64,000 nucleotides of DNA from Capitulum mitella. Taxonomy: Eukaryota > Arthropoda > Thecostraca > Pollicipedomorpha > Pollicipedidae. This document shows positions 16,568-59,522 of the stretch, piece after piece. The notes under the pieces were generated by a model that saw nothing but the letters and a program-made list of their open reading frames with translations, was not told the origin of the DNA and searched no databases. The stretch spans positions 29,639,006 to 29,703,005 of the forward strand of contig CP099840.1 in the NCBI GenBank assembly GCA_030062745.1, in the 5' to 3' direction. Within the stretch, counting starts at the first letter, position 1. Every line of letters begins with the position of its first letter. A program made the position numbers and the translations under genes.

Positions 16568-16771
16568 ATGGACGGCGACCGGCAGTCGCTGGTCTCGGAG
16601 GAGCACACAATGACCGGAGACGAGAACTCGGCCATGGAGCCGGAGGAGGTCACCTCGGGCCAGCGGTCCCGGTCCGTCTTCAGCGATTCGCCGGCCTCCT
16701 CCGTCGGCCGCGGCAGCGCCACCCGCGCCAGTCCCGTCATGGGAGTCAGCGCTCTCACCGGAGACTCACAG
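16568..16771 (+). CDS. Tmc: Tmc exon 1 (start codon)
   Basis: Residues 1-68, acidic and Ser-rich cytosolic N-terminus. The start is chosen because ATG 16568 sits in an ideal context (GCCGCCATGG) and all later phases agree. It ends in phase 0 at TCACAG|GTGAGC. The frame stays open upstream of the ATG, so a longer N-terminus is possible. The donor is echoed twice downstream (16835, 16892). Confidence 0.75.
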
Positions 16772-57145: not shown

Positions 57146-59522
57146 CTGAAACGGCCCGACGGACGCTGGTCAGGGAGGACACCACCGTGATCCAGGAGCT
57201 GGTATAGAGAGATAGATCCAGCAGCAGACGGGAGGCCCTGAAACAGTCCCAGTCGTCAGAATGCGGCCACTCCATGCGGCGGCTCCTGCCGGCACTGGCG
57301 CGGTCAGCAATGAACAAGAAGCGAGCCACCCTTTATTGTCGCCTGCGCTCACTTTGGGTCGGCGGGTCCGTCCTGCCCTGACTGCCGCCTTCACTCATTC
57401 GGGGTCGGCGGGTCAACCCTGACCTGACTGCAGCCTTCACTCACTCGGGATTTGCGGGTCCGCCCTGACCTGACTGCAGCCCTCATTCACTCGGGATCTG
57501 CGGGTCCGTCCCTGAACTGACCTGCAGCCTCCACTCACTCGGGATCTGCGGGTCCACCCTGAACTGACTGCAGCCTTCCACTCACTGGGGATCTGCGGGT
57601 CCACCCTGAACTGACTGCAACCTTCACTCACTCGGGGTTGGCGGTGTTTCCCCTGTCCTCGCTGACGGACGGCCGCAGCTCCGGCGCCGAGCCGGCACTC
57701 AGCGGCGGCGCCTCCAGTTCACGCGGCCGCGCCAGCCGAGCGTTCCGCCGACGCCGGCGCCGGCCCGTGCACGCCGTCGTCGACCCGTTCAGCGCTGCCG
57801 GCGGCGAGAGCGTCACCGACGACCGACGCGCCGCAGGCGGCCGCTGGAGCGGGAAGCTGGCCGCTGGAGGGGGGGGGGGGGGGAGTTGCTCAGGAGAAGC
57901 GTCTGGGATAAACGGGAGGACCTGCAGCCACCGGCGGCTGGAAGGCAGTCACTGCTGAGCGCCGGGAAAACCAGGTGGGACTGGACTGTGCACTGGTGAA
58001 AAATATTGAGACTGCATGGCGTTACGTTGCCCAAACAGGTAGAAATCGTCTGAGCCAACCATGTCTGGTCTCCGAAGACGGTGAGCAGGCCGGCGGCAAA
58101 AACGCCATCACTGCCGTCGATCGCGGGGAAGGCTTGATTGACTGATTATTGGGGCTCAGGGGCGCACCGACTTCGAGGTCATTCGGCGCGCGGGGAAGGG
58201 ATGGTGCTGGAAGGAGAGGACGTAAGTACAACGTCAGTAACGAAAAGTACAACTTTCATGTTCGCAAAAATGAGCGTGATATGGTTTCATGACATGAAGA
58301 ATACGTATCGCTGCGCAATGAATAATGAATGTATTTTGACAGTAAAGACGTACAGCTTCAGCATGAGCGTTGTTTTTTAGTCTGTCGTGCGTGCTTGCAA
58401 AGCCCATGAAATTGAGGAAAACATAATTATGAGCAGCGAAATCAGCAGGGATCTGTTCATCTCAGCATTCCCCTAAACATTGAACGTTTTATTGACATCA
58501 CCTTGCCTGCCCGGTGCCTGGAAATGTTTCGATTTGTGAAAGATATATGTCAGCGTTTTGGCTTCCTTCCCTGCGGCAAAACGTCTCAGCTGGTCGCTTA
58601 CAGCGGAAACAGGTGAGCGGGACGGTGCTGGTGACGGACTGGACGTTGAACACGGTCAGCGTGCTGGAGAAGACGAACGGGAAGAAGAGCTTGCCGTCCT
58701 TCCGGTTGGCTGACGACTGGTCGGTGAGCGGTACGCTCTGACTCTCCTGAGGCGCGGTTGGATCACTGCAGCTCACCACCGCCACCGTCGCCACCAGGGC
58801 AAACTGCGCCGGCAAAACATGACGACCGGCGGCAGAGTTACACATCATGAACCGGCGCTACAGTCAGACATCACAGACCGGCGGTACAGTCACACATCAC
58901 AGACGGGCGGTACAATAAGACATCACATACCAACGTTACAGTCACACATCATATACCCGTGGTACAGTCAAACACCAAAGATAGGTGGTACAGTCACACA
59001 TCATAGACCCACCGTACAGTGAGACACTTAAGACCGGCGATACAGTCAGTCATCACAGATCAGAGGTACAGTCAGATATCACAAGCCGGCGGTACAGTGA
59101 AGCATTGTTGCAGATGGCCAGCAGTATATCTGAGGCATTTTTGTGGGTAGCAAAAGTCAGAAAAATAAAGTAAACGAATGGATTCATGACGCCAAAGGTA
59201 TGGTCGTAAGAATTCAGCTAAATACAGTGTCCCGACGATGACGGTGGCGAGAAAAGCGAACTCGTCATTGTTGACCAAGGTGACTCAAAATGCTGTGACG
59301 TATATCTAAGTATGTTTTAACGTGGTTAAAATATACATAATACTTTGATTTGGACCGCTGCGGAGAGTGCTCAATGTATTTTGCATTCCCATATTGCAAC
59401 ATGTAGTGAATCATATGAATAATCGAAAAACTGTGCAATCGTCAAACTGCTCGCAATCAAAGTAATGAAAAATGAATGGAAGCCTAGGCATTGTCACTTA
59501 CCGCCAGCCTTATTGGATGCAT
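56995..59522 (-). CDS. Secreted Thr/Ser/Val-rich protein, four-exon gene, unrecognised
   Basis: Four minus-strand exons join in phase to a product of about 178 residues: 59502-59522, 58602-58803, 57632-57794, 56995-57145. It begins with a signal peptide split by intron 1 (MHPIRLA|FALVATVAVVSCS). It has a short acidic/Ser region, a beta-prone core (FPFVFSSTLTVFNVQSVTST), a six-arginine stretch (TGRRRRRRNARL) that may be a cleavage site, and a C-terminal block rich in Thr/Val/Ser ending CSIGGTTFLPFCGGK. Two-cysteine clusters suggest disulfides. I recall similarly composed anonymous secreted proteins in crustaceans but can name no family. Core promoter elements and consensus splice sites support the model. 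Confidence 0.72.
57126..57237 (-). other. Alternative or decoy copy of exon 4 start
   Basis: A 92-bp tandem duplication places a second acceptor (CTGTTTCAG) at 57238 before ASRLLLDLSLYTSSWITVVS. Reading on from it meets a stop at 57126-57128 and lacks the cysteine-containing end. It would give a shorter C-terminus if used. Confidence 0.5.
57332..57337 (-). terminator. AATAAA in intron 3 of the secreted-protein gene
   Basis: On the minus strand, AATAAA lies 291-296 nt after the in-frame TGA met if the exon 3 donor is not used. A transcript ending here would encode a shorter protein finishing ...TANPE. Confidence 0.35.
57360..57632 (-). repeat. Minisatellite repeating the exon 3 donor
   Basis: Six or so units of about 46 bp; on the minus strand each contains CCCGAGTGAGTG, GGCTGCAGTCAGTTCAGG and GACCCGCAGAT. 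The donor of exon 3 (CCCGA|GTGAGT) is the first member. Confidence 0.85.
57632..57794 (-). CDS. Secreted protein exon 3
   Basis: Acceptor CTCGCCGCCGGCAG, donor CCCGA|GTGAGT in phase 2. Encodes LNGSTTACTGRRRRRRNARL and a Pro/Glu/Ser linker ending NTANP. Without splicing, the frame stops three bases later (TGA, 57628-57630). Confidence 0.65.
57795..58601 (-). other. Intron 2 of the secreted-protein gene
   Basis: A G-run at 57869-57881 (plus strand) near its 3' end. No exon seen. Confidence 0.5.
58602..58803 (-). CDS. Secreted protein exon 2
   Basis: Phase 0 entry after TTTTGCCGGCGCAG; exits one base into a codon at CCGCT|GTAAGC. Encodes the rest of the signal peptide (FALVATVAVVSCS), DPTAPQESQSVPLTDQSS and the core KDGKLFFPFVFSSTLTV...VPLTCFR. 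Confidence 0.75.
58819..59098. repeat. Minisatellite, about 27-bp unit, beside exon 2 acceptor
   Basis: About ten units of ACATCACAGACCGGCGGTACAGTC type. In minus orientation it starts 16 bp upstream of the exon 2 acceptor and shares CCGCCGGTC words with it. Confidence 0.9.
59502..59522 (-). CDS. Secreted protein exon 1 (start codon)
   Basis: Only seven codons, MHPIRLA, ending at a perfect donor GCG|GTAAGT. The start is chosen because joining to exon 2 in phase 0 completes a signal peptide, and because a TATA box and initiator lie a short way upstream. Confidence 0.7.

Follow-up and report, generated by a model that had tools for sequence, protein, structure and literature searches.

The window analysed here is a stretch of 64,000 nt from the genome of the barnacle Capitulum mitella (positions 29,639,006–29,703,005 of contig CP099840.1; genome of 477,042,490 bases in 16 contigs). 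It carries Tmc and a second plus-strand gene, called the 47-kb gene below, together with a gene on the minus strand. In our rebuilt model of Tmc, the reading frame stays intact from exon 1 through exon 10 into the start of exon 11, and likewise from exon 12 to exon 17, and the product contains a TMC domain (Pfam match, E = 1.9e-36). The large exon 11 (34198–36140) has a frame break near 34.9 kb, which is an assembly error, a polymorphism or an unrecognised small intron. Pfam searches returned no match for the 47-kb gene, for the minus-strand gene or for two minus-strand open reading frames at 53.6–54.6 kb.

The window also holds repeats of other kinds. Two copies of one repeat, probably a transposable element, lie at 27866–28996 and 45005–46904 (1.0 kb at 69% identity and another 138 bp at 83%), and pieces around 45149–45333 and 45663–45889 recur at 55403–55585 and 55900–56133. 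Arrays with a 15-bp unit at 47841–48653, in opposite orientation, flank a short TTAGG telomere-like tract (48210–48251) and form an inverted repeat with arms of about 300 bp (69%). A 175-bp segment occurs twice within Tmc intron 11 (36772–36946 and 37007–37181), the copies being 235 bp apart and 94% identical, some 60 bp ahead of exon 12.

We were interested in the tandem arrays that lie at splice junctions in all three genes (Table 1). For every junction, the 50 nt centred on it were aligned with the junction's own intron, and a copy crossing the boundary with a score of at least 25 was counted as positive. Four of 38 plus-strand junctions had such a copy: the Tmc exon 17 acceptor (A17; score 71), acceptor 3 of the 47-kb gene (58), and the donors of Tmc exons 1 (D1; 35) and 4 (D4; 25). 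In the minus-strand gene, alignment with the own intron also found boundary-crossing copies at the exon 3 donor and the exon 4 acceptor. An earlier reading of this DNA from the letters alone (hereafter the sequence-only reading) had named eight junctions in three genes as seeded with arrays. That observation is partly confirmed: spanning copies are present at six of the eight, clearly at five and weakly at Tmc D4, and at the exon 2 acceptors of Tmc and of the minus-strand gene the arrays stop short of the boundary.

Table 1. Tandem arrays and junction copies in the window (positions counted from the first letter of the window)
Feature	Positions	Strand	Remarks
Tmc exon 1 donor, junction after 16771; copies of exon end and donor in intron 1	16742..16900	+	3 further copies at +63, +92 and +120
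37/73-bp array in Tmc intron 1	17333..17484	+	26 bp before exon 2 (17511); beside acceptor, no spanning copy
29-bp array deep in Tmc intron 2	20566..20882	+	far from known junctions; the window's counter-example
Tmc exon 4 donor (29681)	29667..29935	+	weak: one 15-nt copy, 93%, at +237
Tmc exon 17 acceptor array	39795..40130	+	junction 40114, exon start 40115; four copies of intron end and exon start
34-bp array across acceptor of exon 3 (50334), 47-kb gene	49968..50344	+	about 11 array copies; 10 spanning copies counted for junction 50333
Extra acceptor and exon-start copy upstream of exon 4 (about 57145), minus-strand gene	57119..57260	-	1 copy, 92 bp away
46/94-bp array across donor of exon 3, minus-strand gene	57341..57644	-	last exon base 57632; 5 copies
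26/52-bp array near acceptor of exon 2, minus-strand gene	58817..59098	-	ends 13 bp short; no spanning copy

The arrays share a common anatomy. Their tandem units, about 23–154 bp long, take in the last bases of the exon, the splice site and the first part of the intron, with the mirror arrangement at acceptors, and most unit lengths are not multiples of three (23, 28, 29, 31, 34, 35, 44 and 46 bp). The three D1 copies in Tmc intron 1 keep GT in two cases and have GC in one; the A17 copies are 80%–97% identical, and all four keep AG. We then examined 16 arrays together, seven from the window and locus L013 and nine fetched from elsewhere (one further locus, L034, had no copy at this stringency). 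All 82 junction copies that they held lie in the intron, and an equal distance on the exon side contained none, which agrees with the earlier suggestion that such arrays are tolerated only on the intron side. The splice dinucleotide is kept in 77 of the 82 copies.

This genome is rich in minisatellites: a crossing near-copy was found within 575 bp on one side at 5.7% of 6000 random points. Junctions were therefore compared with chance in several ways. The point test covered 88 junctions, 43 in the window and 45 curated from 220 kb of sampled stretches (22 of 10 kb each); the latter came from 31 ab initio segments picked by eye, with unsure segments dropped and one donor added by hand. Seven of 88 junctions were positive, against 203 of 2363 control points placed 75–475 bp into introns, and 1 of 45 among the sampled junctions alone. 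Taken alone, the point test gives no excess. We judge it to be biased, because the intron control points often fall in arrays that start at the junction and because exons limit the extension of arrays.

A profile of near-copies around the 88 junctions shows this. On the exon side, there was a single positive at each of −100, −75, −50 and −25 nt (1/88). At the junction itself there were seven (7/88), and the count then stood at 8–10 of 77–84 between +75 and +225 before falling to 1–4 of 65–67 between +325 and +400, a fall that the dropout of short introns may explain in part. Inside exons, near-copies at a score of 25 were as frequent as in the genome background (92/1550) and came mostly from repetitive coding stretches. 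At a score of 35 they numbered 23/1550, or 3/1170 with three repetitive exons left out (chosen after they had been seen), so the depletion in exons concerns strong copies only.

The placement of strong arrays (TRF score of 150 or more, in an intron of known extent) points towards junctions. Six of seven such arrays touched a junction within 30 bp, against 1.8 expected under uniform placement (p = 2.5e-4); five of the six come from the window, where they had drawn the eye in the sequence-only reading. For the arrays of the sampled stretches alone, the figure was two of three (p = 0.055, two intron lengths being assumed). Thirteen arrays of the sampled stretches were checked by eye for flanking exons, and most could not be assigned to a gene; one (L029) lies 397 bp from an acceptor. 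Another sampled locus (L030, 5440–5910) has a 33-bp array of 14 copies that ends 7 bp before a plausible acceptor, and there it is the tract upstream of the acceptor that seems to have been multiplied.

We searched the assembly for arrays built on splice motifs, defined as three perfect copies of a motif at a spacing of 23–53 bp, and counted overlapping matches. The donor motif CAGGTRAG gave 1260 matches, compared with 366 for CAGTGRAG (a GT-to-TG swap) and 515 for CAGCTRAG (donor-killed); as single sites, the three were about equally frequent in the 220 kb (19, 18 and 20, respectively). Mirror-image motifs were tried as controls and set aside as uneven (107 mirror matches for CAGGTRAG, 47 for CAGCTRAG, 187 for CAGTGRAG, 15 for TTTCAGG and 112 for TTTGACG). 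Counted as loci on contig 1, there were 13 for CAGGTRAG, among the matches listed (to 43.7 Mb), against five for CAGTGRAG (p = 0.06) and eight for CAGCTRAG (p = 0.16). Donor-motif loci exceed the control motifs only weakly, and the excess is not significant alone.

Where the donor-motif arrays lie is more telling than how many there are. An open coding frame reaches the first donor copy in 10 of the 13 contig 1 loci listed and not in the other three. Counted by hand, 7–9 of 24 other CAGGTRAG sites lie at a coding exon end (p = 0.007 to 0.025), and the donor-killed CAGCTRAG arrays do so in none of seven cases. An automatic coding rule gave 11/13 arrays and 8/24 CAGGTRAG sites in the sequence examined (p = 0.0035); the rule is lenient, since it also accepts 4/17 sites of the non-donor motif CAGCTRAG. 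Pfam searches covered nine of the ten exons, and four had a match (F-box, CAP-Gly, dynein AAA_8 and an ALMS motif). For the five without one, and for locus L045, the exon call is based on coding score. The dynein exon aligns with DNAH6 without a gap up to the junction. Among the ten loci, two (L034 and L040) have a unit that overlaps the exon by no more than about 5 nt, and a third (L046) leaves the position of the exon end in doubt by one unit.

A THOC3 exon in one of the 22 sampled 10-kb stretches is an independent case of the same arrangement: the exon end together with its donor recurs five times downstream, mostly in a 78-bp unit. On contig 1 (4794690–4796793), a 45-bp donor-spanning unit is repeated about 46 times after a coding exon; by our reading the unit is open in frame, and inner donors could therefore add 15-residue repeats. 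A CAGCTRAG-type array at L053 (1–480, minus strand) lies just upstream of the acceptor of an exon resembling ERGIC3; a Pfam search with a 33-residue piece of this exon gave no match.

Acceptor motifs behaved similarly. Triples of TTTCAGG had 297 matches and those of the scrambled TTTGACG 57; as loci on contigs C1–C7 they numbered 30 and nine (p = 1e-4), with single sites at 44 and 51 in the 220 kb. Removing about eight TTTCAGG loci that by eye resembled one dispersed repeat left 22 against nine (p = 0.005), the TTTGACG loci being unfiltered. Nine of 12 acceptor arrays, picked by eye as array-like, ended at the start of a coding exon, compared with 6/60 TTTCAGG sites (p = 1e-5). One of the nine exons had a Pfam match (PTPLA) and eight had none. 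In two of the remaining three (L057 and L060), the array was still running on at the end of the 300 bp examined.

A splice motif that forms an array is more often found at a true junction than are its other sites, and junction arrays occur at many unrelated genes. The expectation of the sequence-only reading, that arrays meet splice junctions more often than chance would place them there, is favoured by array placement and by the motif-location tests; the point test gives it no backing. Some idea of scale comes from the motif searches, each of which required three perfect copies of one motif: at least 13 donor loci in the first 43.7 Mb, and 22–30 acceptor loci in 247 Mb. From these numbers the genome may have anywhere from a few hundred to roughly a thousand junction arrays, which is a rough extrapolation and not a count.

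We lean towards grouping the arrays with the junction minisatellites known from lancelets as "mirages": near-neutral duplications of a junction, later expanded within the intron. A small tandem duplication straddling a junction would be nearly neutral whatever its unit length, since the mRNA stays the same when the copy next to the exon is the one spliced. Unequal exchange or slippage could later expand the array into the intron, and duplications inside exons would be removed by selection. Near-neutrality accounts for tolerance, but not by itself for the excess at junctions over the deeper intron. That excess would call for a seeding bias at exon edges, or for arrays to persist longer when a conserved copy anchors them, and this is the step of which we are least certain.

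A bolder version has an arthropod lineage, independently of lancelets, running a genome-wide process that preferentially seeds arrays on junctions, perhaps coupled to transcription or splicing, and leaving on the order of a thousand junctions with competing near-identical sites. We put this forward tentatively and would not bet on it. The sequence-only reading had proposed a recurrent process that expands boundaries across the genome, and its interpretation is partly supported: the association recurs (10/13 donor and 9/12 acceptor loci), whereas the point test, the weak excess in donor-motif locus counts and the two named arrays that stop short of the boundary lend it little.

The simplest competitor is chance, with GC-rich minisatellites so dense that some land on junctions and boundaries not favoured at all. 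The frequency of crossing near-copies at random points fits this explanation, as do the point test, both overall and in the sampled junctions, and the donor-motif locus counts that rise only modestly above those of the controls. Random intronic arrays barred from exons should, however, give coverage that climbs gradually away from the junction, and coverage here reaches a high level at the junction itself and has dropped from +325 onwards (where short introns drop out). Motif arrays also sit at true junctions more often (10/13 and 9/12) than sites of the same motifs (7–9 of 24 and 6/60), and we consider chance unlikely. An artefact of assembly, in which errors in long-read assembly inflated short repeats at exon edges, might be suspected from the use of one assembly and from the frame break in the large Tmc exon. 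Sequence differences among the copies reach 20%, though, the arrays are found at many loci, and the adjoining coding exons read open, all of which makes such an artefact very hard to credit.

Two further explanations give the copies a role in splicing or in intron origin. Under the former, splicing would be tuned by copies that act as extra, alternative or stepwise (AG|GT dual) sites. The retention of the splice dinucleotide agrees with such a function, and AGGT sites in tandem repeats are reported to be usable in human UBC (PMC10809524). By our own estimate, however, the 80%–100% identity of the copies predicts about as much retention, which is consequently no evidence of selection on them, and most units are not multiples of three, so the use of inner copies would shift the frame. 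We find selected function quite improbable. Under the latter, we would be seeing intron gain in progress, with the duplication of AGGT-containing exon sequence creating new introns, a route suggested for the mirages of lancelets (PMC3087553) and, more broadly, for tandem genomic duplication. The arrays described here extend existing introns, and exon-side copies were absent from all 16 arrays, which leaves intron gain a slim prospect.

Should junction arrays prove common in a second phylum, the lancelet mirage would be a recurrent outcome of genome turnover and not a curiosity. With every array, a real gene presents a row of near-identical splice sites, which makes the choice of splice site by position rather than by strength directly testable. 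The arrays also provide many loci for following whether new introns ever arise by tandem duplication.

The closest known counterpart is the lancelet mirage, described at Adh3, TnC, the globins BflGb6 and BflGb9, and PGBD5, with many units carrying AG/GT signals and unit lengths of 10–72 and about 150 bp (PMC3087553, PMC3902484). Lancelet mirages and barnacle arrays have in common a repeat unit that lies across the exon–intron boundary, the involvement of both donor and acceptor boundaries, and the retention of AG/GT signals in many units (here 77/82 copies in 16 arrays). Mirages are also reported to leave normal splicing undisturbed and to be unstable in length between alleles; the barnacle arrays are known from the sequence of one assembly. 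Variable internal tandem repeats in human (PMC2812944) resemble the barnacle arrays in being minisatellites of about 30 bp that reach exon–intron boundaries; that report places them in recent primate segmental duplications and links them to new introns and alternative transcripts, whereas several of the exons here come from widely conserved genes. The dual-specific AGGT sites of human UBC (PMC10809524) likewise have splice motifs multiplied in register with a repeat, but in UBC the repeats belong to the coding sequence and the intron spans a multiple of the unit, whereas the barnacle copies lie within introns. The proposed gain of introns by tandem genomic duplication shares the tandem duplication involving AGGT at exon edges and differs in that the barnacle arrays extend introns already in place. 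A partial literature search found no title or abstract on junction-spanning minisatellites in crustaceans, only ones on lancelets and human segmental duplications. In the accounts of mirages cited here, cephalochordates are the only hosts; here the host is a barnacle, and arrays were sought genome-wide and compared with scrambled motifs. Both the host group and the genome-wide test may be new.
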